Positions 9,251 to 64,000 of a stretch of DNA of 64,000 nt are shown one piece after another (the first letter of the stretch is position 1; each line of letters opens with the position of its first letter). This stretch comes from Polytrichum commune (Eukaryota; Streptophyta; Polytrichopsida; Polytrichales; Polytrichaceae), in assembly GCA_950295325.1 (NCBI GenBank), contig OX485803.1, forward strand, positions 17,732,001 through 17,796,000, given 5' to 3'. Below the pieces are notes generated by a model. That model made no database searches, had not been told where the DNA came from, and saw only the letters and a list, made by a program, of their open reading frames with translations. The position numbers were made by a program, and so were the translations under genes.

Positions 9251-9261
9251 TTTGTACTTTG

Positions 9262-11169: not shown

Positions 11170-11593
11170 ATGAAGGTTGCTTATGCAACCCATATTATTC
11201 TTGTTTTATGGCTCATAGCCTCTCTATATTGGAAAAACTCTCACTGTACAAACTCACACACATCACATGATTGGAGTTCGAATTATTGTTTTACAAACAT
11301 AAACAAAACAAGAAAAATAATGCATAAAAATATGTGTTATTACACTCTCTCTTCCCGACTTATGCATAAAAACAAAATTAATAAGCTAAGAACATTAGTA
11401 AAAGATAGGGAAAAAAATAGACACATTAACCATATCTTCTTCCTAGCAACATCTCCCCTTCAAGCCCCACTTGCTCAGAAGTGGAATGGGGATTTTGTTA
11501 GGATAAAAAGAAGAACTCCAACAAACACACAAAATAATATTCAAATATTTATTTCTTGCAGAATGGCCTACTCACGAAGTTTGGATAAAAACT

Positions 11594-13164
11594 TTGATGG
11601 TGTTAAAGACATGGAAACCTCACAAAAGAAAAACATCTAGCAATGCATGCCTAACCATAATAGAAAATTATAAAAATAGAAATAACACACCAAAGAAAAA
11701 TACATACCTATGGCTCAGATTCAAGGCTATGAACGCCTTGAATGCAAGCAAAAAACTTGACAAAGTAACCCACAAAAGTGCGAGTGAACTTATAAAAATA
11801 GGAATGAGTGACAAAGAAGCTTTAGAATGTCATGATTGTATATCATCCTATCCATACGTTCCACAAGAAATGTGGCCAAGTATGAATGAACTTGGGAACA
11901 AAATTATCATCACACCCAAATTCCCTCGGATGTAGATGTATGTGATAGATTTGCCATGGATTATCATATTGTTTTGTCCTTTCATCTAGATGATATGATT
12001 ATTCCAAAAGAATATGCATTAGACAAAATCACTAAAAGACTAGATGATATGAAAATAACGTTTGGTGAGGAAATAAGTGATCCCATAGTCATAATGTGTA
12101 CACACGGAGGAAAACAATGGTCGGGTCATGCAAAAATTCATCTAAAAAATGTGCAAGAGGATTAAGTAAAATTACTCTAAGGCCTCCGTCCATTTATCAT
12201 CCGTCTATCGGATAATAAGATGCACAAAACAAAAATTTGCAAATTATATAACACCATCACTTCTAGTGAAATGCTATTCATCAAAATTACTACCGATACT
12301 ATAAAAGAGAAACCTTGGTTTATGGTATATGAAGAAGTGATAATGGAAGAATTCAAAAGAGATTTCAGTTACGAAATTACACATGTAAGGAAAATAGAGA
12401 GTCACAACTATGCATAGATAGTTGTCACTAGTCTGGAATAAGTCATAAATATTTGTAAAAAAAAACCTTCGGCGTGAATGTATAGATGTCTCAATGGGAA
12501 AATCTATTGGTGATGATTTGGCAAAAAAGAATGCGCTAATTTTCATTGCAAAATACCTAAATAGGTTAAACCCAAAGAGATTCTCGAGAAAAATTTTAGG
12601 GCATACATGGAAAAAAAGAACATACTAAACATTTACTTCAAAAATGATGCCCAAGGCAAATTCACGGGGGTGTACAATATCCAATGCTTGAGTACCGCGG
12701 TGTACAAGAAATTTGTAACGAAAAGTCATAAAATATGCAACAAATATATAGAGTTCTCTCCCCACCCTAAGAGTTTGGATGGTATATCCAAATCCTCACT
12801 TGAAGAACTTATAAGGCTAGGTTTCAACGATGTTACCATGGCTTTAGCCAACACAGTAGAAGCAATGGAAAACGTCCCCTCCAATGCACTTGAAAAGAAA
12901 GATATAAATAAAATAATACAGGAGGTTGTCGCAAAAGGTGCTGCAATAGTCCGCAACGAAATGTAAACTATGGAAACACGCTTCACAATACAAGCGAAAA
13001 ACTTTGCCACGTACGCAGAGGATAAAGCGGCGAAAGCTCTCAAAAAAAAAATGGCCACACTAAGGCAAGCCCTCAGCAAAACCATGGTTGCCCTTGAATC
13101 TACGGCCATGCTCGACAAAGGAGACTCATCCAACGACAAAGATGGCCTAATGGCTTTAAACTAA
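11594..13164 (+). pseudogene. ORF1 of the non-LTR element, broken
   Basis: A Lys-rich, A-rich coding region just upstream of ORF2, readable in pieces: 11,594-11,935, 11,956-12,165, 12,170-12,417, 12,607-12,966 and 12,970-13,164. The third and fourth pieces are separated by several stops. One block reads IEFSPHPKSLDGISKSSLEE and is followed by a helical Ala/Glu-rich part; an earlier block (THKSASELIKIGMSDKEALE) looks like a diverged repeat of it. The C-terminal 60 residues are Ala/Lys-rich and likely coiled coil. By position it should be the RNA-binding ORF1 protein of the element, but no RRM or CCHC motif could be seen with confidence. The frame at 11,170-11,640, with a hydrophobic N-terminus, may be unrelated leader sequence. 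Confidence 0.55.
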
Positions 13165-13383
13165 ATTCGACCAACACCACAATACTCCCCCAAACTAAAC
13201 ATACACACATCCCAAAAATACATAAATAAAATAAAAAGGTATTTCTAAATACCTCCATCCTAATAGAAACCATCAACATCACTCAACAAAACAATAATAC
13301 AAAAACCAACATACAAATAAACAAAGATATAACCAAACAATATACACATAACACACACATTAAAATACAAAAATACATACAAT

Positions 13384-13466
13384 ATACCAATACCAAAAAC
13401 CAATACTCATACCAATACCAATACCAAACCCGATACCAATACCAATACCAAACACCAATACCAAGT
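13384..13466 (+). repeat. CCAATA hexamer tract between ORF1 and ORF2
   Basis: Tandem, slightly degenerate CCAATA/ACCAAT hexamers lie in the linker between the two reading frames of the retrotransposon. The surrounding 13,160-13,500 is nearly devoid of G on the + strand. Confidence 0.8.
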
Positions 13467-13565
13467 CCCTTAGCACATAATACATCACAAATACAAACCT
13501 ATATAAAACCATGCCCTAAAAACTCCCAACAAAAACAAATTAAAATAATAAGCGTCTCCAACTAC

Positions 13566-13613
13566 ATCTTGTTATTATAATGTGGAGACATTGAAACCAA
13601 TCCAGACCCAATG
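13566..13613 (+). other. 2A-like ribosome-skipping peptide at head of ORF2
   Basis: In the frame that continues into ORF2 the sequence reads ILLL, a stop codon, then CGDIETNPDP followed directly by Met. The 2A consensus is a Leu-rich stretch followed by D-x-E-x-N-P-G-P, so nine of the key positions fit and only the Gly before the final Pro is Asp here (a single G-to-A change of codon GGC would give GAC). The 2A peptide causes ribosome skipping between Gly and Pro. It is known at the N-terminus of ORF2 in several APE-type non-LTR families of animals and in trypanosome L1Tc/Ingi. The change and the stop mean this copy is unlikely to be active. Confidence 0.8.
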
Positions 13614-14246
13614 CCAAATCTACTACAAGCCCACCCAACCGCCCATAAAAGACGACAAACAACCTATTTTATACCTGGTACAATAAAACTCCAACCGGAA
13701 TACCAACACCTAGCCACAAACTTCAAACCATTATTCCAAAATATGCACCCCTTACACACACAAACAACATCCGCATTTCCACACTTAGACAATTACATAC
13801 AACAACATGCTAACCATCCGCCCCCTAGACTGATATACGCCCTAATTGTAACAATCAGCCCCTCCACTAGAGACTCTGACATATACCTACAACAATAGCC
13901 AATCCCGGATTGGACCTCACAAATACTAGAAAATTTGACAAAACTACCTAACCCACCGGAGAGACACGTCGAAACCCCACATCCATATACACAATTCCAT
14001 AATATGTACCAAGACAAAATATCCCCCCCAAACACAATCCACCGTAAACTATATGACCATATACATCGACACCCCGAACAACCAAATATCCGGGACTTAC
14101 ACGACACATTCCCATATCTACCCCAACAATTACTTACAGAAGCATTAAGATGCACATAGCCTATCATAGAATATACACACCCTACTTATCCGATACTAAA
14201 TAACCAAATCCCGCCACCAAGGCCAACAACGCTCACAAACCAAAAA

Positions 14247-15020
14247 ACATACATCATAACTTGGAATGTCGCGTCGCTTAACACGGCAATGCGATGCCTC
14301 CACAAACTAACAACATACTCCCAAAACTCCCCAACAACCATAACCATACAAGAAACCAAACTTATTGCCACTAAATCCACTAAATACATACAAAACATTT
14401 TCCCCCAATACAAATTTTTCTTCAACAATACGCACAACATCACATGTACTATGTGCCAGAGAATGATTCATAGAGACCACAGAGGAGGTCTACTTACTCT
14501 CATCCATAACAAACATGCATTTCCTAGTAACTTGTCTAAAATACCCACCCCCACAAGCATATCACCCTCTCTCCAAATAATCTGCATAGCCAACCAACTC
14601 CTTCAACGTTGGCTATTAATAAACATATATATGCCATCTCATGACGAAGACTTGCCCCTCATCCCCACCATGTATATCATTATAACCGAACAAATTAATG
14701 CCCACCCTAATCACGTTTATGTAATATGTGGTGATTTTAACCGAGATATAGCACTAATAGGGAGACAAAACGACCAACAAACCACACCACCACAAGCTGA
14801 AGATTATCAATAGAGGTCATTCATGGACAACTTAGAATTAACATACATTACAACAAATACCACATTCTCAAGACAAGGAGGAAATAACTACACACACAAT
14901 AGCCTAATAGATGGATTCTTCATAAAAACCCCAAATAACAACTAATGTAGGTCAACCACAAACCAAAATATCAACCTTAACTCTGACCACATATCCATAC
15001 AACTACATATCCCACCTAAT
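14247..15020 (+). other. APE-type endonuclease domain of ORF2
   Basis: All landmark motifs of the exonuclease-endonuclease-phosphatase fold occur in order: TWNVASL at the N-terminal strand, IQETKL with the metal-binding Glu, INIYMP, CGDFN with catalytic Asp and Asn, LIDGFF, and SDHISI with the catalytic His. Two in-frame stops interrupt it. This nuclease nicks the target to prime reverse transcription in APE-bearing LINEs. Confidence 0.88.
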
Positions 15021-15939
15021 ACATTGATTACCAAAATGCCATCACCCAAACCGGAACCACCCCCAAGAATACTAAACCCTGTACCAAAGGAAAACCTATA
15101 AAACTTCCACACACAGTTCTTCGAAGCCAACTCAAACCAAATAAACGCACTCACTCAAATACTTGAAACTAATACAGATTTAACAATAGAACAATGGCAA
15201 ATGGCATGCACCTCACTAGAAACCCTCATCACTAACATCTCAAGTACAGTCTTAGAAACATGCAGTGCACCATCAATTTCGATCTTACCAAGCAGAATTG
15301 CCAAACAAGGAGGCTATCTTCCAAAAAAACTCCAGAAACAATGGAAAAAAACACCTCACTACTTATCATCTTATCTGAAAAACAATATACATCACAAAAA
15401 AAATCCTAACTGGAGAGACCACCCCATCATCCAAGAAATTGCTAATCACACCTACAATACCCTACCAACACCTCCAATACACCCTCTCCCGCACAATACA
15501 TGGATAGAAGATCTAGCCAATAAAGGAAAAAATAGCCAAAAAAGAAGCCTGAAAAATCACAACAAAATATTCGAGAAAACAAATAAAAAAAACCATATCA
15601 AAATACCAACAATTATATGACAAAAGCCCCCAAAAAATAAACAAAAAAATCTTCAAAGAAAACGAATCCCCCCCACTAGATTGCATCATAGATAGATATA
15701 ACAACATCCTCACTAACCCATAAGATAGCGCCCAAGAAATCCATATCCAGCAATCTACCAGCAATAAACCCACAGTCCCCACATGTCACTACCAACCTGA
15801 TCACCTACAATATTGCACATGTGAAGTTAGATAATACCCATGGCATGATCTGGATGGGTATACTATCGAAAAAGAGGAGAACCAAATGTTCCCCTACACA
15901 CATACCTCGACCAAGATACGTACGACATATGTCTCCGAA

Positions 15940-16810
15940 ATTTAACAAATGGGAAAATCCCTGGACCGGATAAAATCCCCAATGTCATACTAAAAATTAT
16001 GCCCCCACGATTTCACACTATCCTACTACTATTCTTTGCACATTGTTATATACAAAAAAATCCCTGCATCCTAGAAAACAAACCTTACCATACTTTTGTA
16101 TAAGAAAGATAGCCCATATTGCCTCAACAATCATAGACCAATAGCCTTTGCCAACACAATATACAAGTTTTTTACCAGCACACTCACTATCATCATCTCC
16201 ACATATGGAGAAAGACATCAAATCTTACATGACAGTCAAGAAGAATTTAGAGCTGAGAGATGCACATCAAGGCAATTACAAACCCTTATATTAGCACTAG
16301 AAGATGCTAGATTCACAAATCAAGACATCTACATACTATACATAGACTTCAAAAATGCCTTTGGCTCAATCGATCACGCCAGACTCCGTACCATCATGAA
16401 AGACCTTGGTTACCCACAAGACGCAGTAGCATTGATAGAAAATATTTATTTGGAATCTACCAGCACATACATTGGAGAATATTTTGGTAAAACACAACCA
16501 AATCCCATACAAAGAGGAACCATACAAGGCGATACACTGAGCCCATAGCTATTTATTATTTTTCTGGAACCACTCCTACGATGGCTACAAAAGGGGAACA
16601 ATGGATATACCTTCAAAACCTCCAACAATACGATAAACTCCGCAGCATACGCCGATGATTTAGCCGCCCTAACTAACAAAGTAACATCCCTCCAAATCCA
16701 ACTAGACAAGTTCTGTGAATGGGCAGGAATGGATCTAGACATTCCCAAATGCGCGATCACTGGATGTCCCAACAAGTCAAAACTGAACTCACATGCCTTC
16801 CAAACACACT
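15940..16810 (+). other. Reverse transcriptase domain of ORF2
   Basis: Motifs in order: NGKIPGPDKIPN (finger region), NNHRPIAFANTIYKF, YIDFKNAFGSIDH (motif A with catalytic Asp), RGTIQGDTLSP (motif B), and SAAYADDLAAL (motif C with the catalytic Asp pair), then a thumb-proximal FCEWAGMDL block. A stop directly follows motif B. The motifs are of the non-LTR type, not LTR or Penelope. Confidence 0.93.
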
Positions 16811-17616
16811 TATAAGAAGCAAATATAAACTTCAAACACCAACCAACACCCATACTTAGCCAACACGAACCATATGTATACCTTGGAATCAACCTAGTCC
16901 CCTCATTACAATGAAAAACACAAACGCACATCATCATAGCTAAATTAACCAAACAAAGCAAAATCTTAATAACATGCCCAGCTACCATGAAACAAAAAAT
17001 AAAAATGGTTGATACAGTCATAAGAGTTGGCATTGCTTACAACTTCTATGCCGTCCCACACTCTCTTCCGGCCATTAAGAAACTAGACAAGAAAATAATT
17101 GCATTGTATAAATTCATATGCGGCCTACCAAAATGTATGTCAAATGCCGTCACACAACTGCCACATGAAATGTTTGGAACATAAGTTTTTTCATTAAAAA
17201 ACGCATACATAACATGTATAAGAGAACAACTCATAAATGCCCTCAATGATAAAGGTAGGTTGGGTAGAATATACAAAGGATTAATACAACACATACTCGC
17301 TAAACACGGAGGAGCACAAAATCTAACACGTATCTCGCTCCAGGATTGTACGAGATCTCTGTTCTTATTGAAAAAAACAAGTAGAATCCACCTTAAAAGC
17401 ACACTCTAAAATTTTTCCCTCACCCCTACACCATTAGAAACACAATGGATGTCACAAGCACGAAACATCCCAACGCTTATCCCATAATTATCTCTAAAAT
17501 ACCTTCACAAACTAATATTACATAACATATTTGAACTAAAACATATAACATGTCCCAATGGAACACATCTAATAAGCAACGATGAATTTAAAACTCACTA
17601 CAACAAACCCACAAAA

Positions 17617-18858
17617 ATGGAGAAAATTATACTAGAATATGCTAGAAAACTATTTTGTGAACCAACATGCCTTACCCAATGCACACACCCATGCCCAACA
17701 CATATGACACCAAACACCTTGAAGAACGAATATAAAATACTAAATCATAACATACACATAAGACCACCTCTACTACCATTAGAACACCCAAAACCACCCC
17801 CATACATACTCAATTACCCAACGCACTTCCCGATACACAACATAAGAAACGACCGCCCAGGCACATACACATATAAGTACAAAATCACGAAAAAATATAC
17901 ATCCTACCTATGCCAATGGACACTCCCAAATGAAACAACTTACAACAAATGGCTACCTCAAAAAGAGTTGTTTCCTTGGAACAACCAAAACGCCATAAAC
18001 AACAACATTCTACTACTAACACAATACTACACCCGAAAACAACACCAACATTTTACTAACATACTAAACATAAACTTTAACCAAGAACAGATGAGAGATA
18101 CTAGATATGTCCCCCCACCACAAACCATACCCCTATACTACCTACACATTAACGAAGGTAACCCAAAAGATGATATCGCCTACACACAATATACTATCCA
18201 AACCCAATATGACATTGCACACATCTACAATAACATTGGTAGACATTTGATTACCATTCCGGAAACAAGACTAAAATGGTTGTGGGATCAATACCACTTA
18301 GCACTAAACAGACCACACAACCTAGAACCCCCCACACAACCATTCGAAACAGAAGTGGCATGGTTATACCAAAGATATAAATACAAAACTCCCAAAAATG
18401 ACCCCCTCAAACTTTCGCAATACACACTTCCAAATGCCATCCTTGAAAACTTCATAAACACATTCCAAATAACACACTCATATTTCTCATCACCAATAAC
18501 ATGCTCCACCACACTTAGACAATATCACTCCCCATTCCCTAGAGATGTAGTATTTGGATTAGTTGGAAAAACATTCCATCATAAATGGCGAGGCAATGAC
18601 TATGCACACCCACACACAGACACCGAAGCTCAACATGCCCTCCATTGGGCCCGCCTTGCAGCAAAAAATGACTCAAACTCTATCACAATACTAGTAATGC
18701 CAGACGAAAATTGGTATCACAATCCTAATCCCCATAATGGACCCTTCGCAGACTCGCATGTTATAACCCACTTCAAAGCCGATACCATCATCTACGAAGA
18801 ACCAACAATTCCCCCAGAACTAAGAACTGAACCTAGAACAAAAAACTGTGCAATATGA
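17617..18858 (+). other. 413-codon open segment with methyltransferase-like C-terminal part
   Basis: This is an uninterrupted segment between RT and RNase H. Its N-terminal two thirds are rich in Asn, His, Tyr and Pro and are not recognised. The last third (about 18,420-18,850) carries an ordered set of blocks: THSYFSSPITC, SPFPRDVVFG, AHPHTDTEAQHALHWARLAA and ITILVMPDENW. The FxSPxxC...SxFxRDxxFG pattern recalls the MTase domain of PCIF1-type cap adenosine methyltransferases, but the NPPF catalytic motif of that family is not evident. The resemblance is from memory of motifs only. The fact that it stayed open while both flanks broke may be chance. Confidence 0.4.
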
Positions 18859-19114
18859 GTATTATGCATACATCATAAAAATATACCCATAGGAACAGAG
18901 ACATACACCCAACAAATGAAAGATATTGTCAACACACTACGAATCCCCGAAATGTTTAGCCAAATTGTACCATTGACACCACTAGATACATTAGTGAACC
19001 GCAATACAAAATGAACCAAACTCACATACCCACCTCCCCCGCCGATCACACAAATTCCAACCAACCCATGAAATATCAACCCTCAACAATGCCTACCGCT
19101 TAAATACCCACCCC

Positions 19115-19560
19115 AATTTTGCTACTACACGGATGGGTCATTCAAACCACTCAAACAAACAAACAATGGACAATGGAAACGTGAAAAAACTGGATATGGT
19201 ATTTACAACCTCTTTCAGGAACCTAAAAATCGCAAAAAGATTACCGGGACTACAAAATATTTTACGAGCAAAAATGATGGCAATACACCACACTCTACAA
19301 CTCCTCACCACAACATATCAAAATGAGCCAACCCACATATTTACAGATTGCCTAAACATCCTATACCTCCTAAATACCCAAATCAAACACCCCACTAGTC
19401 ATAATAGTCACCCGGATAAAATAATCCTAGAAAATATGATTAAAATGTTAATATCCCATACACAAATCACCACACTCCATAAAATAAAAACCCACACAAA
19501 CATAGGAGGAAATGACCAAGCAGATACACTAGCCAAACAAGGACATAAATTAGACCATAA
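19115..19560 (+). other. RNase H domain of ORF2
   Basis: FCYYTDGSF provides the first catalytic Asp. A frame change follows; in the second frame ILRAKMMAIHHTLQLL stands where the catalytic Glu is expected (Lys here), HIFTDCLNILYLLN gives the second Asp, and THTNIGGNDQADTLAKQG gives the His and last Asp region. Order and spacing fit a type I RNase H of a LINE. The Glu-to-Lys change and the frame change show decay. Confidence 0.87.
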
Positions 19561-19889
19561 AGATACCATAGTTTCATACGAGCATGCACACCCTACACCA
19601 TACTACCTACAAAAAGATTGGTGGCATTCCATGCAAGAAACACCTAACAAGGGCCCCATAAGGCACCTCAGTAAACACATTCTCAAGCATGACAATGAAC
19701 ATAACTTAACAATTATAGCAAACCAAACCCACCAATTACACAAATGGCTAGAAAACGACGACATAGATAAAATACTATCAAATGACTTTTGGACGAACCC
19801 CGCCATCAAAGATAAACAAAAAACATGCTTAATAAAATTCCGAACTGGACAATATATGGGACACACCCGAAAACAACTCTTCTTTGGCA

Positions 19890-20060
19890 AAGAAGCCTTC
19901 CCATCAAGAACATGTATATCTGCAACTCAACAGATGCGGACACATGATGGCTACACGTACTACTTAAATGCAAACAACAATATATCCATGCACTAATTAC
20001 AAAAGGCATAACAAAGCGGTATGGAAAATACGTAAACTCATCTTATCAACTAGAATATCA
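19890..20060 (+). other. Cys/His knuckle region of ORF2
   Basis: Downstream of RNase H, Cys, Cys, His and Cys codons occur in the order and rough spacing of the C-terminal CCHC knuckle of RNase H-bearing LINEs (ICNSTDADT, WLHVLLKC), followed by RHNKAVWKIRKLIL. They are spread over different frames because of small indels. Such knuckles bind nucleic acid. Confidence 0.55.
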
Positions 20061-20129
20061 AGACATTATACATTAATGAATGCAGGAACGCATAATGAAA
20101 TACCCCAAGAAAACACAGTCCCCACATGG

Positions 20130-20591
20130 CTACTCCCATGTACATGTGATACCCGAAGATGTCATTGCAACGCTAGCTAGGCTCAAACCGGACATATTAT
20201 GCATCATAAGCCATCCATATAACCACCCCCCCTAGAAACCCCTACACCTGATATCACCATACAGTTCATCGAATTCACATATTGCAATGATAGATTCGCC
20301 GCTGAAACCCTGGATAGAAAAATCATAAAATACCAACCACTCATAAACAACATCATAACAAAGGGTTGGAACATAGCCCCACTCATGGTACTAGTTGCAG
20401 GAGCAAGAGGCACAAGACATATCCCATCAATGAAAAAAATGAAAACAACGCTCGCACTCCCTCTCACGAAAATTAAAAACACGTTTAAACAAATTAACAT
20501 AATTGCCACACAACATGCACATTCCATGTTAGCCCACAAACAAAGGCTAGAAAATCAACAAACTATTAATGATCTCCAAGACCTCTCATAA
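20130..20591 (+). other. PD-(D/E)XK-like nuclease segment at the C-terminus of ORF2
   Basis: LARLKPDILCI supplies a PD pair. After a frame change and about 20 codons, ITIQFIEFTYCNDR supplies a strand with Glu in the position of the (D/E)XK motif (Thr where Lys is expected). A helix with a basic, Gln-rich part follows (LDRKIIKYQPLINNII), then LMVLVAGARG. This order is typical of restriction-like nucleases. A second, restriction-like endonuclease beside APE is the hallmark of Dualen-type elements. The assignment is by motif order only. Confidence 0.5.
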
Positions 20592-20739
20592 ATAAATAAC
20601 ACTCCCAACCCGATACATATCCCCCCCCCACTAATCACCCCAAACATAATAACCGGCTATCGGAACTTACTACTGGTTACTAAATATAGTGTCTACGTCC
20701 TACAAAGGGCGAAGTACTTTTACATCTAACGCCAGTGCC

Positions 20740-20820
20740 GTAAGGCATGGCCTATGATGTTCTACGAACATACACTTTATTCACTCCGGCCTCCTCCGGA
20801 GACCGGAGTTCTTCTTCTTA
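20740..20820 (+). other. 3' terminal hairpin and CTT tail of the non-LTR element
   Basis: ACTCCGG pairs with CCGGAGT around a short GC-rich loop (about 20,782-20,810). A further local hairpin, GCCGTAAGGC, lies just upstream. The element ends in TTCTTCTTCTT rather than poly-A. The same hairpin plus a short tail occurs alone at 39,378-39,433, which fixes this as a mobilised 3' end. Such structures are recognised by the element's own reverse transcriptase in stringent-type LINEs. Confidence 0.75.
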
Positions 20821-21900: not shown

Positions 21901-23185
21901 TTAAGAAAAGGGCACGTGTACAGTACCGATACCCTGACCGGCCTGATACCCGCCTGGGTACATTCCCTTCCGTTGCATTCCTTTGCTTCCGACCAGGCTC
22001 GCATTCGCCTTAAAAGCCACCAATTATCGATCTTTCAGTCAGAAACCGAGCTTGCCCTTCAGGTTTCATTGAATCAATCTGCTACTGCTTGTTGTTGGCC
22101 TCTTGTAAGTGGATTCTGGAACCAGTTTGAACTTGCTCACTGAGTTTAATCTCACTTTACTCTGTTTACAATAGAGATAGATAGATTGAGCTCTATAACT
22201 TATTTCGGCAGTGCGCCATGACTGTGAATCTGCTGTGACTCGGAGGTTGGAGAACTTAAGTTTTCCAGTGATGGTGACATTCGGATGAATAGATTTTATT
22301 GTGAAGAACTTGAGTCAGGGGATGCGATGGTCATTTTGTTGTTGAGACAGAGAAAGATTGAGTTGCATAGCCTAAAACTAGCAGTTATAGCGGCATTGGT
22401 CTGTCTGGTGTGATAGAGCTCACGGCTTCACCTCTTTCCAACGATGTCAACATTTGGATAAATATATTTGATTTGTGGAATTCTAAACACGTCATGCGAT
22501 CGTGGTTACATAGTTAGGAGAGAGGAAGAAAGATTGATGTGCATAGCTTATATCGGTAGTGGGGTATTACTTACTATGTCTCCTGTGGTGGAGAGCTTAG
22601 GGCTTCAAATTTTGATTTGGTGCTATTAATCTGATGATTAAAATTTCTGGATTCAGGAATTTTGGACAGGTAATGCGATCGTGAGTTTTATGTTAAGAAG
22701 TCCTTTAAGCAAATGGAGCTCTGTCCCGATGGTTTCCTGTGTTGTTGTTGATTGTTGGCATTTAGGGCGTACGGGAGGTTGAAGCGAAAGTAATCTTGAA
22801 AATATTATCATATGAAATTTAACAGGGCGCATCTAGTCTTACTTGCGCAAATTTGTTTTTGACATAGAGTAGTGTAAGTTTTCTACACGATTGACGTTTC
22901 GTTTATTCTGCGAGTCTTAGAGTCAAATGCATAGGAGGAATCTCGGGCGGTGGCAATTAATCGAGTTATTGAAACTCATGGCAACTGATGGTTTGGAAAT
23001 TTCCGCTATAGACAATATAGTTATTGTAGAAGGTCGGTGAATCACGTTATATATATATATATATATATATATATACCGTCAATGATCTTTCGTTTACACG
23101 CATTTTTATTGGAGTCCAAGTTTCTCACTCGTTCTTGTTTGAATCCTGGATACGTTTCGCAGAACTTCCAATTTCTGAATTGAAT
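21901..23185 (+). promoter_or_regulatory. Upstream region of the GH1 gene, possible 5' UTR exon and intron
   Basis: About 1.3 kb before the start codon. Near 21,960-22,080 the sequence is GC-richer and lacks the repeat character of its surroundings; a CAG|GT junction near 22,060 could end a non-coding first exon. An ATATAT run lies at about 23,046-23,075 just upstream of the coding start and probably is a microsatellite, not a TATA box. No specific regulatory element could be fixed. Confidence 0.3.
23046..23075 (+). repeat. (TA)n microsatellite
   Basis: An uninterrupted TA dinucleotide run about 110 bp upstream of the GH1 start codon. Confidence 0.9.
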
Positions 23186-28259
<5,074 letters not shown>

Positions 28260-28295
28260 ACACTTGTCATCTCCTACAACGGCTGGAAAGCTTGT

Positions 28296-28301
28296 AATAA
28301 A
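28296..28301 (+). terminator. Polyadenylation signal of the GH1 gene
   Basis: AATAAA lies 37 bp after the stop codon, the expected place for a plant near-upstream element. Confidence 0.6.
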
Positions 28302-39001: not shown

Positions 39002-39373
39002 ACACATTTTCCAAGCTCAAAAGTTACATTCTTACTAAGAAGTTACAGTACACTGTAATTAATGTCAAATGCTAATCCACACTAATTGAAATAAACATTG
39101 TAGTTCCAATGGACTGGTCCTAGATCTTGCAGACGTAGAATTTGAGTACCGTGTTGTGAATTGAAGGTGGTTTCAGTTATAAGTGATGATGAATCAAAGT
39201 CTTGTCACTCTTATCTCAAAACATATTACATTTCAATAAAGCAGTGAGACACTCCATTCCTTCAACCACATTTGGTTGAAGTGAGGCCGACACCACACAA
39301 CAAATCGAGTCCCGTTTTTCAAACTCATAAAGGGAAGAGTACTACGAGGTCACTAATACTTCTGAAGCTCATT

Positions 39374-39433
39374 AGGGTGTTCTACGAACATACACTTTAT
39401 TCACTCCGGCCTCCTCTGGAGACTGGAGTTCTT
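39374..39433 (+). mobile_element. 5'-truncated copy of the non-LTR element's 3' end, with 15-bp target duplication
   Basis: 56 bp match 20,758-20,813 with two differences, covering the terminal hairpin and the beginning of the CTT tail. The direct repeat CTTCTGAAGCTCATT lies on both sides (39,359-39,373 and 39,434-39,448). Both differences are C-to-T at CpG sites, as expected from methylation-driven decay. This is an insertion by target-primed reverse transcription that stopped almost at once. Confidence 0.85.
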
Positions 39434-39614
39434 CTTCTGAAGCTCATTCGAGCACCAGACCAGAACTTAAAATGCTGCATCAATCACACAAAGACACAAC
39501 AACGTCTCTTGATCTTGCAGTTCGTGTGCAACCTTGACGTAGGTCGAAGAGTTTGACGATGATTGTGCTTTTCACATGAAACTCATACATTGTGTGGATC
39601 ATAGGAAATCTCAA

Positions 39615-44082: not shown

Positions 44083-44920
44083 CTACAAAATTAGAAGAAT
44101 ACGGTGGGCCCATGAGAACAATAGAGTGTTTATTTTTGGTTGGTTTGAGACATGTCGGGGAGGCATCATAAGTTTGGCATCCCTCCCAAACTTGCCTCCA
44201 ATGTTCATCCACCCTTGGTACAAGTGAGAGGGTTGATTCTCCCAAAGCAAGAGGTCCATGAGAAGCAAGCCTTACATACATCTATCTACTTCCATTATTT
44301 CTAACAAGTCAATCTTGAGATTGTTGCACTTCTTCAACCAATCATGGATTGTTAGAGTTACAAGAGAGTGTAAACCAATGTTGGTTGGCTACATGCCTGA
44401 ATGCATGGTATCAAATCACCTACTTGTGGGTATTACAGTTGTAATACCAATCAAGTATAGATATTTGGTGATTTATCTCAAGGTAAGCAAATTGTTGTGT
44501 ACACGAGTTATTATTTGGGTCAATACCATTCTAAAGCACATTCATACTAGGATTAAAAATAATTAAATTAGGTATGAAGGTTTTTGCATGATGTATAGAC
44601 CTAAATAGCATTGAAAACAAAACTACCATCAAATACCATACCATGCTGCTACAATAAATGTAAAATCCTCATTATAGATACCCAAATAGCATATTAAAAA
44701 ACAATTTGAGACCAACACTTGTGTAAAACGAGTGTAAATCACTAGCAAGTGCTAGGGTTGCTATTTGCTTTGAAATAACAACCTAGTCATTTGTAATGTA
44801 CTTTTCTAAGGTGTCCTCCTTATCTTGTAAAGTGTATTTGAGTAGCTTAGGTCATCTTTTTGGTTCTCAATCCTATGATTGGCTATGGGAATTACTATCA
44901 TGTGAGGGGTGAGCGTGAGC

Positions 44921-45526
44921 GTTGAGTGATAAGTGGTAACTCATGAGTGATGAGGGAGGACAAATGTTTGGAAATACATAATTATGGTATATGAGCATAT
45001 ATACTATTTTATTATAATGTAAATGGAGAATTCAAAAAAAGTGCAATTAGTGTAATGAAATGCCTTACTTTACTTCAGAATTCAACAATTGCAAGCATGG
45101 AATGAGATTTTCAAAAATCAAAATTTAAGATTATTGTTAGATTCAACATTCAAAAGCATTTCAAGTCAAATGCCAACATATTTCCATCAACGAGTATGGT
45201 CAACACTTTATTTATTAAATTGAGTGTTGAGTGATAAGTGGTAACTCATGAGTGATGAGGGAGGACAAATGTTTGGAAATACATAATTATGGTATATGAG
45301 CATATATACTATTTTATTATAATGTAAATGGAGAATTCAAAAAAAGTGCAATTAGTGTAATGAAATGCCCTACTTTACTTCAGAATTCAACAATTGCAAG
45401 CATGGAATGAGATTTTCAAAAATCAAAATTTAAGATTATTGTTAGATTCAACATTCAAAAGCATTTCAAGTCAAATGCCAACATATTTCCATCAACGAGT
45501 ATGGTCAACACTTTATTTATTAAATT
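44921..45526 (+). repeat. Nearly perfect 305-bp tandem duplication
   Basis: 44,921-45,225 and 45,226-45,526 start with GTTGAGTGATAAGTGG and run in parallel over the whole unit. I could see only one substitution (CCTTAC in the first unit, CCCTAC in the second, near 45,064 and 45,369). This is either a very recent duplication or an assembly artefact. Confidence 0.9.
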
Positions 45527-47437: not shown

Positions 47438-47730
47438 TCTTTGGATCATGCTTTAGAACACTTTACTTTGTTCTCCATCCACAGATAAGTACAACTCTTA
47501 GCAGCACATGTTTGTCATCGCGTGTGAAAAATCATCCATAATCCTTAAAAACATTCAAAAGATTCAAATGTTTATTCGGGGGGCCCTGAAAGGCCCACCC
47601 CCCTTATCCTGCATAATATCACCTCCAACCTCACTTCATTCAAGCACACATAAACCATTTTAAAGACATAAAAATATCCTCTAAACACATTACGTTTTAA
47701 GCAATCACAACAAAAATTGATTTTCTCACT

Positions 47731-49250
47731 AAGGGTGAAGCATGTGTCTCACCTCTAACCACAAGCTTAAGGAGAAATTTAGATTTCTTAAGGAGGGTGA
47801 GACATGTATCTCACCTCAAAAAAACAAATTTAAAACATAAACTTTTGTTTCATAAGGGTGAGGCATTTCCCTCACCTCTAAGCACAACCTTAAGGACAAA
47901 TTCAGATTTCTCAAAGGGATGAGGTATGTGCCTCATCCCAAAAAAACAAATTCAAAATATAGAATTTTGTTTCATAAGGGTGAGGCATGTGCATCACCTC
48001 TAACCACAACCTTAAGGAGAAATTCCGATTTTTCAAGGAGGGTGAGGCATGTGCCTCACCTCTAAGCACAACCTTAAGGAGAAATTCAGATTTCTCAAGG
48101 AGGTTGAGGCATGTGCCCACCTGAAAAAAAAAATTCAAAACATAGAATTTTGTTTCATAAGGGTGAGGCATGTGTCTCACCTCTAAGAAAAAGCTTAAGG
48201 AGAAATTCATATTTTTCAAGGAGAGTGAGGCATGTGTCTCACAAAAAAAATTCAAAATTTAGAATTTGTTTCATAAGGGTGAAACATGTGCCTCACTTCT
48301 AAGCACAAGTTTAAGGACAAATTGAGATTTCTCAAAGAGAGTGAGGCATATGCACCACCTGAAAAAAAAAATTCAAATCATAGAATTTTGTTTCATAACG
48401 GTGAGCTATGTGCCTCACCTCTAAACACTAGCGTAAGGAAGAATTCAAATTTTTGAAGGAGGGTGACGCATGTGCCCCACCCGAATAAAACAAATTCAAA
48501 ACATAGATTTTTGTTTCATAAGGGTGAGGCGTGTGCCTTACCTCTAAGCACAAGTTTAAGGAGAAATTCAGATTTTTCAAGGAGAGTGAAGCATGTGTCT
48601 CACCCAAAAAAATAAATTCAAAACATAGAATTTTGTTTCATAAGGGTGAGGCATGTGCCTCACCTCTAAGTATAAGCTTAAGGAGAAATTCAGATTTTTC
48701 AAGGAGGGTGAAGTATGTGCCCAACCCGAAAAAAATAAATTCAAAACATAGAATTTCGTTTCATAATGGTGAGGCGTGTGTCTCACCTCTAAGCACAAGC
48801 TTAAGAAAAAATGCAAATTTTTCAAGGAAGGTGAGGCGTGTGTCTTACAAAAAAAAAATTCAAAACATAGAATTTATTTCATAAGGATGAGACATGTGCC
48901 TCACTTCTAAGCACAAGTTTAAGGAGAATTTCAGATTTTACAAGGAAAGTGAGGCATGTGCCCCATCCGAAAAAAACAAATTCTAAACATAGAATTTTGT
49001 TTCATAATGGTGAGGCATGTGTCTCACTACTAAGCACAAGCTTAAGGAGAAATTCAGATTATTCAAAGAGGGTGAAGCATGTGCCTCACCTCAAAAAGAC
49101 AAATTCAAAACTTAAAATTTGTTTCATAAGGATGAAGCATGTGCCTCACCTCTAAGTACAAATTTAAGGAGAAATTCAGATTTTTTAAGGAAGGGGAGGC
49201 ATGTATCTCATCCTAAAAAAACATATTCAAAATTTTGAATTTTGTTTCAT
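47731..49250 (+). repeat. Minisatellite array A: about 120-bp unit with two palindromic cores
   Basis: About 12-13 units of roughly 120 bp. Each unit contains GTGAGGCATGTGCCTCAC-like cores twice, about 60 bp apart, separated by AAGCTTAAGGAGAAATTCAG on one side and AAATTCAAAACATAGAATTT on the other. Units differ by scattered substitutions and small indels. The frames open across the array are by-products of the repeat. Confidence 0.92.
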
Positions 49251-50069
49251 ACTTTGAACTACATGTACTAAGTATACTGTAATCTTTTGTAATAATTAAT
49301 AAATTTTGTTGTTTTAAAAAACGAAATCAGATTTACATCTGAATCCCAAAAAATTGAAGAGTTAAACAATTACATGAATGTAGTGTTGAATTGAAGTACA
49401 TTCTAAATAAAGTTGAAAATAAACATAAAATATATAAAATACGATGGTATTTGAATATTGAATAAAAGTTGGTGTTGAAGCGCCTATATAAGTTGAAAGT
49501 AGAATCGAAGATTAGTTGAGCTGCAAATCAAGACATTAGAGTTATTGGAGAGTGGATTGAACGCAATAAGATGATAGAGAGCCGAAGGATCAAAAATTCA
49601 CAGCAATAGGTTAAATGATGTAGTACTAGAAAAACTTTTGAACTTTTGAGGAAGGAGTGAAGAGGGACCATCGGAGAGAAACAAGAAGGTGTTGGAGTAA
49701 GAGTTGTAGGAGTAAGAGGCGCCGAAGTAGATCGATGTTGGAGACGAGTGGCGGTGGAGAAGAGCGGCGTTGGAAAAGAGCGGCGGCTAAAGAACTTGAC
49801 CTAACCCTAAGCGGCGTTTTAGGGTTTAGGGTAAACGTTTATTTTTAAATTTTATATTTGTAGACAAACTTTGTATTGGTCTATTATGCACATATTTAAG
49901 AAATTACACTTGAATTTTTTAGGTGGGCTGGTGGCATTAGTCTACTCCTACCTAGCATTGTTTTTAGTTTTTTGAAAACAAAATAGGATTTATATAAATA
50001 TTTAATATTTAATATTTAATATAATTTCATAATATACATTATTATAATATATATTATAAAAAATATTTA
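49251..50069. other. Spacer between the two arrays, no gene recognised
   Basis: A purine-rich, GGCGG-bearing stretch at 49,640-49,830 gives a 63-codon basic frame with no known domain. A short TTTAGGGTTTAGGGT word near 49,815 resembles plant telomere sequence. Confidence 0.45.
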
Positions 50070-51042
50070 AAGGGGTGAGGCGTATGCCTCACCTTGTCAA
50101 GCAAGAATTAGTTTTTGTTCAAGTTTTAAGGGGGTGGGGCATATGCCTCACCTTGTGAAGCAGTAATTAGTTTTTGTTCAAGTTTTATGGGGGTGGGGCA
50201 TATGCCTCACCTTGTCAAGCAAGAATTAGTTTTTGTTCAAATTTTAAGGGGGTGGGGCATATGCCTCACCTTGTCAAGCAGTAATTAGTTTTTGTTCAAG
50301 TTTTAAGGGGGTGGGGCATATGCCTCACCTTGTCAAGCAGTAATTAGTTTCTGTTCAAGTTTTAAGGGGGTGGGGCATATGCCTCACCTTGGGAAGCAGT
50401 AATTAGTTTTTGTCCAAGTTTTAAGGGGGTGGGGCATCTGCCTCACCTTGTCAAGCAGTAATTAGTTTTTGTTCAAGTTTTAAGGGGGTGGGGCATATGC
50501 CTCACCTTGTCAAGTAAGAATTAGTTTTTGTTCAAGTTTTAAGGGGTTGGGACATATGCCTCACCTTGTGAAGCAGTAATTAGTTTTTGTTCAAGTTTTA
50601 TGGGGGTGGGGCATATGCCTCACCTTGTCAAGCAAGAATTAGTTTTTGTTCAAATTTTAAGGGGGTGGGGCATATGCCTCACCTTGTCAAGCAGTAATTA
50701 GTTTTTGTTCAAGTTTTAAGGGGGTGGGGCATATGCCTCACCTTGTCAAGCAGTAATTAGTTTCTGTTCAAGTTTTAAGGGGGTGGGGCATATGCCTCAC
50801 CTTGGGAAGCAGTAATTAGTTTTTGTCCAAGTTTTAAGGGGGTGGGGCATCTGCCTCACCTTGTCAAGCAGTAATTAGTTTTTGTTCAAGTTTTAAGGGG
50901 GTGGGGCATATGCCTCACCTTGTCAAGTAAGAATTAGTTTTTTTTCAAGTTTTAAGGGGTTGGGACATATGCCTCACCTTGTGAAGCAGTAATTAGTTTT
51001 TGTTCAAGTTTTATGGGGGTGGGACATATGCCTCACCTTGTC
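50070..51042 (+). repeat. Minisatellite array B, left part: 59-bp unit, about 16.5 copies
   Basis: The unit carries GGGGCATATGCCTCACC followed by TTGTCAAGCAGTAATTAG and TTTTTGTTCAAGTTTTAAG. Variant units (TTTCTG, GGCATCTGCC, GTTGGGACATATG) recur exactly 413 bp apart, i.e. seven units, so two successive seven-unit blocks are near copies of each other: a higher-order repeat. Confidence 0.95.
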
Positions 51043-52501: not shown

Positions 52502-53050
52502 ACCTTGTCAAGCAAGAATTAGTTTTTGTTCAAGTTTTAAGGGGGTGGGGCATATGCCTCACCTTGTCAAGCAAGAATTAGTTTTTGTTCAAGTTTTAAG
52601 GGGGTGGGGTATATGCCTCACCTCGTGAAGCAGTAATTAGTTTTTGTTCAAGTTTTAAGGGGGTGGGGCATATGCCTCACCTCGTGAAGCAGTAATTAGT
52701 TTTTGTTCAAGTTTTAAGGGGGTGGGACATATGCCTCACCTCGTGAAGCAGTAATTAGTTTTTGTTCAAATTTTAAGGGGGTGGGGCATATGCCTCACCT
52801 TGTGAAGCAGTAATTAGTTTTTGTTCAATTTTTAAGGTGGTGGGGCATATGCCTCACCTTGGGAAGCAGTAATTAGCTTTTGTTCAAGTTTTAAGGGGGT
52901 GGGGCATATGCCTCACCTTGTCAAGCAGTTTTTAGTTTTTGTTCAAGTTTTAAGGGGTTGGGACATATGCCTCACCTTGTCAAGCAGTAATTAGTTTTTG
53001 TTCAAGTTTTAAGGGGGTGGGGCATATGCCTCACCTTGTCAAGCTGTAAT
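52502..53050 (+). repeat. Minisatellite array B, right part: 59-bp unit, about 9 copies
   Basis: Continuation of the array interrupted by the nested transposon. Same unit and palindromic core GGGGCATATGCCTCACC. Variants with CTCGTGAAGC are common here and absent from the left part. Confidence 0.95.
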
Positions 53051-53819
53051 TGGTTTTTATTTTATGATTGTACATAACTCTCATAAAATGAATTCCTCAT
53101 CTTATTGTAGGATCAAGTATTTTTACAAAAATCATCAAATTATAATTTGATTAATGACCAAGCACATTGAACTAAATGTACCCATATTTATAAATTCTTA
53201 TTTATAGCCAATACAATTATAATATGGTCATATTTTCATTGAAATCTATGCATTTGCAATAATTTGTTCATGTGCACTTTTACATATTGAATTGCACTTT
53301 TAATGAAACCGGTGTTGAAAGAGGAAGGGAAAATAAATGCCTACTTTTGCTTAATGAACACCAAGGAAATCAACCCAAAGCCTTGGGAACCTCGTTTGCA
53401 ATAAGAATGCATTCGAGGCCACCTCGGCTCAAGAGGAATCAATCTTGAAGGGGAAGGATCCATGGTTTTCAGAGTACCCACTTGCTCACTCTCACTCATT
53501 ATGCACTTTAGGGAAACCAACTAGATTGGTAATCTAGGAAAATTCGTTGGGAGTGAAAAGAATTGTAGCCTTAAAGATGAAGAAGTTGGCAAATCTGTAA
53601 TATTTAAGGGTTGGGAGTCAACATGTGGGATGCATTCTCGAAGCCCTTGTCGCAAATGTGGTGAACCTACGTGCTCATCTCTAGTCTACAAATGCCACAA
53701 ATCCCAAGGTGGAGATTGTTGAAGCACCCATAGTCTGGAAAACATTATTAGAAAAAATCCAATGCCAACCTTAGGATCAACCATGTAGGAGGGTTGCTTT
53801 TTGAATTAGTAATGAGTAT

Positions 53820-59198: not shown

Positions 59199-59751
59199 GA
59201 GAGGGAATTATTGCATATGCACATACCTCTCATTCATCCAGCTTAAAAGCCATGAAAAAGTAAGCAACATGTCTTCATTTTTTTCAAGTAGATGTGACAC
59301 TGGAATTAGCCTTAAAGATCATGAATTAGTTTACTCAAAGTCCTTTGAGGTGAAATGGCAACAATCCTATAGGCGGTCGGGTATGCTAGATGGATGAGAG
59401 GTACACTTGTATATGATAATTCCCTCTTGCTCTCCAGGCGGGGGCTTAAGTTGCTACACCCATACCTCCATAATATCACCCTCCGTAATGTCACTCCCTT
59501 TCTTATATCTCAAAACCCTACGGAATGGATGTGCTCAATTTAAATCTCCCTCCTTTTTGTCACATCTCCCTCCCATATATCATGTGTTTTGACATTAAAA
59601 GAATTCATAGAAGAATTCAAACCATACACATCAAGATGTCATCATTGCCATCATTGTCATTATTGCAATATCAACTTTGTATCTTTCCACAAGGTCACAT
59701 GCTACATTAAATCTCTATTATCATGCATCCATGTTAACACTACATACCTCC

Positions 59752-60713
59752 TTAATACCATGTGCACTTTGGTTGCCATGGGCATGATATTAAGGAGGTT
59801 AGAGTGTACTTAACCTCATCTCCACTCTAATTTCTATTGAAAATTAGAAATGAGCACATTCATAATTTGGTGCATGGTCATTCTTCTTGGTCCACATTCG
59901 GTGTACACCTAGTGAGGGGCCCAAGGCTTTCAAAACTAATTTTTTTTTAAAGAAGTTGGACCATGAAAGTTGAACCATGAACTCGGACCATTGAAAAAGG
60001 CCCTCTTTCATGGTCCGACTTCATGGTCCACAGTGTAAACTAACCCTTAATACCACGTGCACTTTGGTTGCCAAGGGCGTGATATTAAAGAGGTTAGAGT
60101 GTACTTAACCTCATCTCCACTCTAATTTCTATTGAAAATTAAAGATGAGCACATTCATAATCTGGTGCATGGTCATTCTTCTTGGTCCACATTCGGTGTA
60201 CACCTAGTGAGGGGCCCAAGGCTTTCAAAACTGATTTTTTTTTTGAAGAAGTTGGACCATGGAAGTTGGACCATGAACTCAGACCATTGAAAAAGTCCTC
60301 TTCCATTATCCGATTTCATGCTCCATAGTGTAAACCAACCCTTAGTACCACGTGCACTTTGGTTGCCAAAGGCATGATATTAAGGAGGTTAGAGTGTACT
60401 TAACCTAATCTCCACTCTATTTTCTATTGAAAATTAAAGATGAGCACATTTCATAATCTGGTGCATGGCCATTCTTCTTGGTCCACATTCGATGTACACC
60501 TAGTGAGGGACAACCAAGGCTTTCAAAACTCATCTTTTAAAGAAGTCGGACCATGGAAGTTGGACCATTGAAAAAGGCCCTCTTCCATGATCCGACTTCA
60601 TAGTCCAGAGTGTAAACCAACCCTTAATACCCACGTGCACTTTGGTTGCCAAGGGCGTGATATTAAGGAGGTTCGAGTGTACTTAACCTAATCTCCACTG
60701 CAATTTCTTAGGA
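59752..60713 (+). repeat. 295-bp tandem repeat, about 3.3 copies
   Basis: Units start at 59,752, 60,047, 60,342 and 60,624 with TTAATACCACGTGCACTTTGG; the first three spacings are 295, 295 and 282 bp and the last unit is cut short. Each full unit also contains an inner inverted pair, GGACCATGAA and TTCATGGTCC, that can fold into a hairpin. No coding capacity. Confidence 0.92.
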
Positions 60714-62284: not shown

Positions 62285-64000
62285 TTAGAGCATCTCCAAT
62301 CCAGGCTGGGCAAATGGGCCCGGCATCCCATATTTCCCGGGCGTCTTCTGAAGTCCCTGCGATAGCGTTCCCCGTCCAGCGCCTCGGGAGCCAACGCAGG
62401 CTCCAGACCTACAACCCTAAAATCGCCACGTCGACCTCGGGATGGCCACGGTGGCGGTTAGCCGAGGACCCCTCTCTCCGACCTCGCTCCAGGGAGTTCT
62501 CTCCGACCTTGCTTCGGCGCCGTGAACGCTCCGACAGCCCTGCTTCGGAGTGCGAAGATGGAGCGATGGCGGGCCGACCTTGCCGGTGCTATTCAACAGG
62601 CTCTCGATGATTCCGATGACGACGTGCAGGAGCATTTTCTTGCAGCAATCCACCATGATTCAAGTGAATCTGATGAAGAGATGAGGCAGAGGCCAAGAAG
62701 AGGGAGCTGCATTGGGAGGGCGTTTGTGCACAGAGACAGAGAATTGTGGCATGAACACTTGGTGCGGGATTACTTTTCTCCTACTCCTGTTTTCGACAAT
62801 GTCAAGTTTCGTCGTCGGTTCAGGATGCGAAGGGAATTGTTTCTGAGAATTGTAGACTCTGTGGCTGCTTTTGATTCCTACTTTGTCCAAAAACGTGATG
62901 GCTTGGGGAGACTAGGACTGTCTTCTCTTCAGAAGTGCACTGCAGCAATTAGGATGCTAGCGTATGGTGTTGCAGCTGATGCAACCGATGAGTATTGTCG
63001 TTTGGAGAGAGTACTGCTACTGAGGCAATGCGTCGTTTTGTCAATGCCATTCGCCATTGCTTTGAGAGTGAATACCTTCGCCTTCCCACAGAATCTGATC
63101 TTCAAAAACAATTACAAATTAACACCCAGCGAGGTTTCCCTGGCATGTTTGCTTCACTGGATTGCATGCATTGGCAGTGGAAGAACTGCCCCGTTGCATG
63201 GCAAGGGCAATTCCAAGACAAAGATAAGAAGCGCTCTGTGATTTTGGAGGCAATTGCAGATCAATCCCTATGGATTTGGCATTCATTTTTTGGCCTTCCC
63301 GGGGGAAACAAACGACATCAACGTCTTGGATCGGTCACCCATTGTGAGAGATATGCTAAGTGGTGACGGTCGGCACTTGAACTTCACGGTGAATGGTAAT
63401 GTCTACCCCCGCTATTACCTACTCACGGATGGGATATACCCCCCATGGGCTTGTTTTGTTCAAACTATCCATGAGGCGCAAGAAGAAAAGAAAAAACATT
63501 TTGCGAAGATGCAAGAGGGGGCAAGAAAGGACGTTGAGAGGGCATTCGGCGTCCTTCAGGCACGATGGGAGATCTTGCGCAACCCTTGTCGACAGTGGGA
63601 AATTGAGGCTATGACCGACATCATTCAAGCACGTGTTATCATGCACAACATGATAATACAAGACGAGAGTGGTTTAGACTTGGAACCATTTTTTGATGAG
63701 GGACTCAGGGGAGGCCGCATGGGTGGGGGACTGTCATTCCACGAGCTCCGAGAAGGGACTAGGGAAATAGAGAACGCAGACAGTCACTTCTCTTTGCGGA
63801 ATGACTTGATCGAGCATTTGTGGCAAAGGAGAGGGGAGTCTTACTAGTGAGCTGAATGTAGTTCTCTGCCTATTGTGTGCAAAACATTCATTGAATAAAT
63901 TGGTGCACTGCATGTATTGAAGTGCCTGGATTGAGCTGCCTGAATCTGAAACCATTCAATTCTACCTACGCCTGAATCTGTAACCATTCAATTCATAACC
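62285..64000 (+). mobile_element. PIF/Harbinger transposon, 5' part (right end outside the window)
   Basis: The left end reads GAGCATCTCCAATCCAGG from 62,288, preceded by TTA (62,285-62,287), the usual 3-bp target of PIF/Harbinger elements. The transposase gene follows about 270 bp inside. The partner ORF (Myb-like) and the right terminus are not seen and would lie downstream of the window. Confidence 0.75.
62558..63847 (+). pseudogene. PIF/Harbinger transposase with two frameshifts
   Basis: A DDE-type nuclease that cuts and pastes the element. The acidic N-terminus (SDDDVQEH, DSSESDEE) is followed by RRFRMRRELFLRIVD. The catalytic Asp residues lie in SLDCMHW (63,160-63,162) and LLTDGIYPPW (63,428-63,430), and the Glu in KDVERAFGVLQARW (63,536-63,538). 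Other landmarks are GETNDINVLDRSP and MHNMIIQDE. Two single-base indels change the frame, near 63,003 (a base lost in YCRLGES) and near 63,300 (an extra G in a G run at GLPG). Otherwise about 430 codons are intact with no other stop, so inactivation is recent. In-frame Met codons at 62,522 and 62,558 are both possible starts; the second fits the family better. Confidence 0.88.

Follow-up and report, generated by a model that had tools for sequence, protein, structure and literature searches.

A probable Dualen/RandI-type retrotransposon in plant DNA with a PCIF1-like domain and a decayed 2A-like peptide

To which lineage does a retrotransposon belong that appears to join a 2A-like peptide with two different endonucleases, and does it reside in a plant? 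The question is raised by a 64-kb stretch of DNA (the whole of which is called the window), in which a sequence-only reading had placed, on one strand, a 2A-like peptide, an apurinic/apyrimidinic-type endonuclease (APE), a reverse transcriptase (RT) with YADD, an RNase H and a C-terminal PD...IEF segment, and had proposed a dual-endonuclease, RNase H-bearing lineage of the Dualen/RandI type in a plant. All five features were found in that order on the + strand of a decayed non-long terminal repeat (non-LTR) retrotransposon at ~13.2-20.82 kb, where the remains of the coding unit are split by stops and frame changes over three reading frames. The proposed lineage is supported by our results, including the second nuclease as judged by its motifs and a collinear relative: with a probability of roughly 0.85, the element is an inactive copy of an autonomous Dualen/RandI-type non-LTR retrotransposon in a plant, an estimate that concerns identity and architecture and not the roles proposed for the parts. 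A plant host, most likely a land plant, is inferred from a glycoside hydrolase family 1 (GH1) gene and a Plant_tran transposase in the same window. New here is a Dualen/RandI-type dual-endonuclease element in a plant with a 2A (decayed) and a PCIF1-derived domain.

Pieces of the window were scanned against Pfam, and matches were graded as above or below the cut-off of each family. Three domains of the element scored above it, namely RVT_1 (E 2.9e-12), RNase_H (E 2.8e-8) and PCIF1_WW (E 4.5e-9). The RT extends over 15,864-17,181, with YADD at 16,648. The RNase H at 19,123-19,546 retains D, D, H and D among its catalytic residues, while the Glu is replaced by Lys in the window copy. Upstream of the RT, the APE-type endonuclease (14,250-14,996) displays the motif series ITWNV, IQETK, NIYMPS, GDFN, LIDGFF and NSDH at 14,256-14,996; its match to Exo_endo_phos (E 1.7e-4) is below the cut-off, and it aligns with two of the relatives described below (L001 and L002).

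Relatives were sought on contigs of prokaryote genomes with a broad pattern made from the window RT aligned with three R2 fragments. This search returned 206 stretches, and seven loci (L001-L007) encode a relative. L001-L003 sit in two sediment metagenome-assembled genomes (MAGs) labelled as bacteria; judged by their content, these contigs are presumably eukaryotic contaminants. Histones were found in neither of the two sediment MAGs, and an RT search of 392 genomes from the phylum of genome G001 matched four (G001 and three others, one match being group II maturase-like). No relative was found on viral contigs in eight of eight scans. L002 has an uninterrupted frame of 3,038 codons that runs off the 5′ end of its contig and encodes, in order, APE (E 2.5e-11), RT (E 5.9e-24), a Cys-rich patch, a PCIF1-like domain, RNase H (E 1.4e-15), a CCHC motif, RHN and RPDIIL...VELKYC, and in L003 the RT and a PCIF1-like domain share one frame. 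Because L002 has the same order in a single frame, the PCIF1-like region and, by collinearity, the nuclease of the window element belong to an old shared architecture. When 1,216 window pieces (at least 30 aa, six frames, all 64 kb) were compared with L001-L003, only six matched at 1e-3: three from the RT, the PCIF1-like region (E 2e-7 and 9e-7), the RNase H (E 1.5e-10, with L002) and an antisense shadow of the RT. For the APE and the nuclease, the pieces align with the relatives at 22-26%, with catalytic residues in register. Among the other loci, L004 and L005 are APE-RT elements and L006 and L007, in a tubeworm-symbiont MAG, are R2-like; all lie on contigs in prokaryote species genomes. The Cys-rich patch of L002 (L002:5,934-6,071, between RT and PCIF1-like domain) is PHD/RING-like (zf-RING_15 E 0.018, below the cut-off), and no counterpart was recognised in the window. 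Upstream of the APE of L001, remains of a Josephin-like cysteine peptidase were observed at L001:2-500 (E 2.7e-4, two frames joined by X, below the cut-off).

A competing origin would be an ordinary plant L1 (or RTE) long interspersed element (LINE) whose downstream parts are unrelated neighbour sequence, given that LINEs of flowering plants are reported almost only as L1, with some RTE (2013 review, PMC3747384). In an RT tree of 12 rows, with the window row read through with X, the window grouped with L001-L003 (support 82/88), with which its RT shares 42-45% identity (E 2e-41 to 7e-40). The approximately unbiased (AU) test rejected a grouping of the window with the two L1-like rows (human L1 and one L1-like contig; p 0.0034) and likewise with four R2-like rows (p 0.0057). 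A placement apart from L1, which the sequence-only reading had looked to an RT tree to reveal, is borne out against these two L1-like rows in a tree from which named Dualen, plant L1 and RTE rows were absent; long branches lead to the group II outgroup and to L004, and the deeper forks are unsettled. A PDB profile search of the RT scored R2 at 112 bits and human L1 at 74 bits. Further points against an ordinary plant LINE are the downstream order shared with the single frame of L002, a tail that is not poly(A), and the His retained in the RNase H, a position held by Arg in the archaeal-like enzyme of plant L1 (PMC4640811). Taken with the AU test, these observations make an L1 or RTE origin highly improbable.

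A number of observations weigh against the Dualen/RandI-type assignment. The support for the RT clade is not starred, and it comes from the tree without a named Dualen row. The window copy is broken and says nothing of its own activity. PCIF1_WW was not listed in the scan of the whole L002 protein and appeared for a fragment only (E 0.0032). In the all-piece comparison, the APE and nuclease pieces had no match to L001-L003 at 1e-3, the pairwise E of the nuclease being 8e-4. Kojima and Fujiwara are said to have reported in 2005 that Dualen includes a cysteine protease; none was found in the window pieces searched, and a decayed copy cannot exclude its loss or divergence. Because this feature was not found, we speak of a Dualen-type element and not of a certified member of Dualen. 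Finally, the C-terminal nuclease segment has no Pfam match, PDB searches with phmmer and with a profile gave nothing relevant, a profile comparison reached E 0.1 with a probability of 0.6, and a single-sequence AlphaFold model had a mean predicted local distance difference test score (pLDDT) of 40.

These last results favor the view that the C-terminal segment is not a nuclease, as does the IEFT of the window, which is without the lysine of ExK. The segment (20,182-20,588) follows a CCHC zinc-binding motif and RHN at 19,904-20,021, and it is frame-shifted, with LKPDIL at 20,182 and IEFTYC at 20,268 in different frames. Against the view, KPDIL...IEFTYC of the window aligns with RPDIIL...VELKYC of L002, where both parts stand in one frame, likewise behind CCHC and RHN. 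The spacing C-x2-C-x7-H-x4-C is the same in L002 and in the R2-like L006 and L007, which carry RT, CCHC and RRPDLVVW...VID[TV]TI (L006 with a C2H2 finger in addition), and an acid-x-K/T follows the PD in all three. By motif and by collinearity with L002, a second nuclease of the restriction-like (PD...E) type is likely present, and we regard a segment of other nature as improbable. Of the C-terminal nuclease predicted earlier, then, the motifs and their order have held, whereas neither profile nor structure tests have lent it support.

The segment at 17,617-18,858, which the sequence-only reading had marked for an HHpred run, matched PCIF1_WW, and this match rules it out as a nuclease; the PCIF1-derived domain had been overlooked. 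The domain lies at 18,316-18,702 and has homologous segments in L002 and L003. A phmmer search of the region against the PDB gave nothing relevant, and its single-sequence AlphaFold model had a mean pLDDT of 34. For 17,830-18,160, which looks like a chromodomain, Pfam gave no match. PCIF1_WW belongs to a cellular enzyme, and in the open-licence literature we found no retroelement reported to carry a PCIF1-derived domain, both of which would agree with a chance capture or a nested insertion of a host gene confined to the window copy. Such an accident is, however, hardly credible in view of the homologous segment that L002 and L003 have in the corresponding position, which in L003 matches PCIF1_WW at E 9.4e-6 (below the cut-off, as is the L002 fragment).

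NPPF is the catalytic motif of PCIF1. In an alignment with human and zebrafish PCIF1 (6irv, 6irx; hhalign E 9e-4 and 2e-4, with probabilities of only 23 and 44), its position is occupied by HPHT in the window (18,601-18,621, reading YAHPHTD) and by HPIY in L002 and L003. As aligned, the domain is retained with the known motif replaced in three of three cases, and because NPPF is absent in all of them, it probably no longer methylates by the known route of PCIF1, which writes N6,2′-O-dimethyladenosine (m6Am) adjoining the mRNA cap (PMC10544176). Between L002 and L003 the PCIF1-like domain is 65% identical, compared with 76% for the RT core and 40-48% for four other stretches, and its nonsynonymous and synonymous differences per site (pN 0.24, pS 0.71) are rough values, with synonymous divergence (dS) near saturation. 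This conservation also suits the main rival, an adenosine methyltransferase with a changed motif that remains active, be it on the cap, on internal RNA or on cDNA, and working methyltransferases are present in other retrotransposons (PMC5890265). The replacement of NPPF by HPHT or HPIY in every domain at hand argues against it, and we consider an active enzyme quite possible, somewhat short of an even chance. More likely, in our opinion and at about even odds, the PCIF1-derived domain has a binding role, with the capped 5′ terminus of the element RNA as its target. A domain of this origin, conserved without the catalytic motif, would link mRNA-cap chemistry to retrotransposition.

The element had been placed at 11,170-20,820, and of these two limits the 3′ one is correct to within a few bases. 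It is set by a second copy at 39,378-39,438, in which 59 of 61 bases agree with the terminal bases of the element and which locates the family's 3′ end with a margin of about five bases. An exact 15-bp direct repeat, CTTCTGAAGCTCATT, flanks this copy at 39,359-39,373 and 39,434-39,448 as a target-site duplication, the + strand feature as a whole occupying 39,359-39,448; four extra bases are found at the 5′ junction, and the tail and the 3′ repeat overlap by a few bases. The 39.4-kb copy shows a 5′-truncated insertion by LINE-type retrotransposition, as expected of target-primed reverse transcription. In the element itself, the region 20,589-20,820 comprises the 3′ end of open reading frame 2 (ORF2), a 3′ untranslated region (UTR) with a stem-loop (fold z -3.85, a value reached by 1 of 200 shuffles) and a TTC-type tail, TTCTTCTTCTT, made of simple repeats and not of poly(A). 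The 5′ limit of the earlier description is not established. From ~13.15 to 20.7 kb the + strand is strongly G-poor and A/C-rich, and the depletion of G sets in only near 13.15 kb, not at 11,170. No convincing target-site duplication of the main copy was found; the best shared word near the expected site, nine bases at 9,253, was judged to be a chance match. An ORF1-like stretch at 11,170-13,163 on the + strand is A-rich and broken, with open pieces in frames 0 and 2, and six pieces searched at 11.17-13.16 kb had no credible Pfam match. Because its base composition is unlike that of the rest, we regard this stretch (from ~11.2 kb) as only a probable part of the element.

2A-like peptides stand at the head of ORF2 in trypanosome L1Tc/Ingi and in several animal families. 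In the window, the corresponding position on the + strand (13,560-13,610) reads NYILLL (13,560-13,577), a stop and CGDIETNPDP (13,581-13,610). The pattern D[VI]ExNPxP has a chance expectation of 0.0003 per element, one of 3,000 first-order Markov sequences containing it. The full core, (D/G/C/N)(V/I)ExNPGP, is not matched, as the window reads DIETNPDP with the stop before CGD, and the position of its Asp is almost exclusively Gly in a 2026 StopGo survey (PMC12846837). Because Asp stands in place of the normally invariant Gly and the peptide is interrupted by a stop, the 2A of the window is not functional; DIETNPDP looks like a decayed 2A. No ATG occurs between the last upstream stop of the 2A frame and the 2A. 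The match could instead be a relic without function in the family, or the ORF1 and 2A region could come from another element. The single copy with NPDP and an internal stop would fit a relic and the deviating composition of ORF1 a foreign origin, and the 2A core is absent from L001-L003 (a search for E.NP.P gave one match, in L003, without the core), L002 and L003 being without 5′ parts. On the other side, a chance match is very unlikely, the peptide sits at the head of ORF2 as in other LINEs (PMC4981915, PMC11512398), and the G-poor part of the element encloses it. We consider the relic or foreign origin unlikely and favor a decayed 2A that belonged to this element. The union of a 2A with two endonucleases put forward by the sequence-only reading is, accordingly, real at the level of sequence, in one copy in which the 2A is dead. 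No report of a 2A in a plant LINE was found in the open-licence literature. A plant element with a natural 2A would be worth noting, given that the 2026 survey came upon no evidence that plant viruses use StopGo (PMC12846837).

From these parts a working cycle can be proposed. An active member would be expected to encode an ORF1 protein together with a single large ORF2 enzyme, the latter freed during translation by the 2A at its head and ordered as APE, RT, PCIF1-like domain, RNase H, CCHC and restriction-like endonuclease. The PCIF1-derived domain would hold the element RNA by its capped 5′ end, and the enzyme would find its own RNA through the stem-loop and TTC tail, cut one strand of the target and start reverse transcription at the nick, with either nuclease a candidate for either cut. 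RNase H would strip the RNA strand, and the outcome would be a target-site duplication and often a 5′-truncated copy, as seen at 39.4 kb. A bolder and rather improbable extension is that the captured PCIF1, without its catalytic motif, reads the capped first adenosine of the element RNA and so selects full-length capped templates, and that in the plant branch the 2A took over the release of the enzyme from the cysteine protease. The replacement of protease by 2A is speculation drawn from the absence of the protease and one decayed 2A. If true, StopGo would occur naturally in a plant element, and a part derived from PCIF1 would belong to a retrotransposition machine.

Elsewhere in the window, a many-exon GH1 beta-glucosidase gene was observed at ~23,100-28,300 (exons joined by eye). 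In the PDB its best single-domain chain is 7f3a (531 bits), beta-glucosidase 42 of Arabidopsis; the top rank goes to the two-domain 8in1, whose four matching stretches add up to 639 bits. A PIF/Harbinger-type transposase in overlapping open frames lies at 62,462-63,844 (Plant_tran E 5.9e-49 at 63.2-63.8 kb). Minisatellites at 47,730-49,251, 50,066-51,042 and 52,502-53,058 have units that share a near-palindromic GTGRGGCAYRTGCCYCAC-type core, and GTGGGGCATATGCCTCAC is present in 17 exact copies in 59-bp minisatellite arrays. A 305-bp tandem duplication with 99% matches occupies 44,916-45,526, and a 295-bp unit is repeated 3.3 times at 59,750-60,708.

Compared with known systems, the element goes with Dualen/RandI by its two endonucleases, its RNase H, the type of its tail and, less certainly, the position of its RT, which in Dualen/RandI falls between the clades with restriction-like endonuclease and those with APE. 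Dualen/RandI elements likewise combine APE and a restriction-like endonuclease with RT and RNase H (PMC4640811, PMC3636483, PMC3747384, PMC12747079), and in eight of eight RandI families the tail consists of repeats other than poly(A), with units different from those of the simple-repeat tail in the window (PMC3747384). They are reported from green algae (PMC4640811, PMC3636483, PMC3747384, PMC8226300) and annotated in cryptophytes (PMC12747079). The window element differs in its plant host, in the 2A at the head of ORF2, in that no cysteine protease was found, and in the PCIF1-derived domain, which goes unmentioned for Dualen/RandI in the excerpts of PMC4640811, PMC3636483, PMC3747384 and PMC12747079. 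With plant L1, also a plant LINE, it has APE, RT and RNase H in common, but the residue in the RNase H, the TTC tail, the second nuclease, the PCIF1-like domain and the rejected L1 grouping set it apart. The 2A-bearing LINEs of trypanosomes and animals have the 2A-like peptide at the same place; they are reportedly APE-type, going by the title of a 2013 paper by Odon, whereas the window element has two endonucleases, a plant host and a decayed 2A. PCIF1 itself is matched by PCIF1_WW and by the alignment around the catalytic region, but in the element NPPF is replaced and the domain is embedded in a retrotransposon enzyme. SymbioLINE-Dnmt, DIRS elements with a Dam-like enzyme and KnitGypsy-Dnmt3 also carry a methyltransferase-type domain, although theirs are cytosine DNA methyltransferases or Dam-like, at other positions and in other types of element (PMC5890265). 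Dualen-type elements have been proposed as transitional forms from the time when LINEs exchanged a restriction-like endonuclease for APE (PMC4640811), and a plant branch with an uninterrupted relative makes the role of each nuclease testable.

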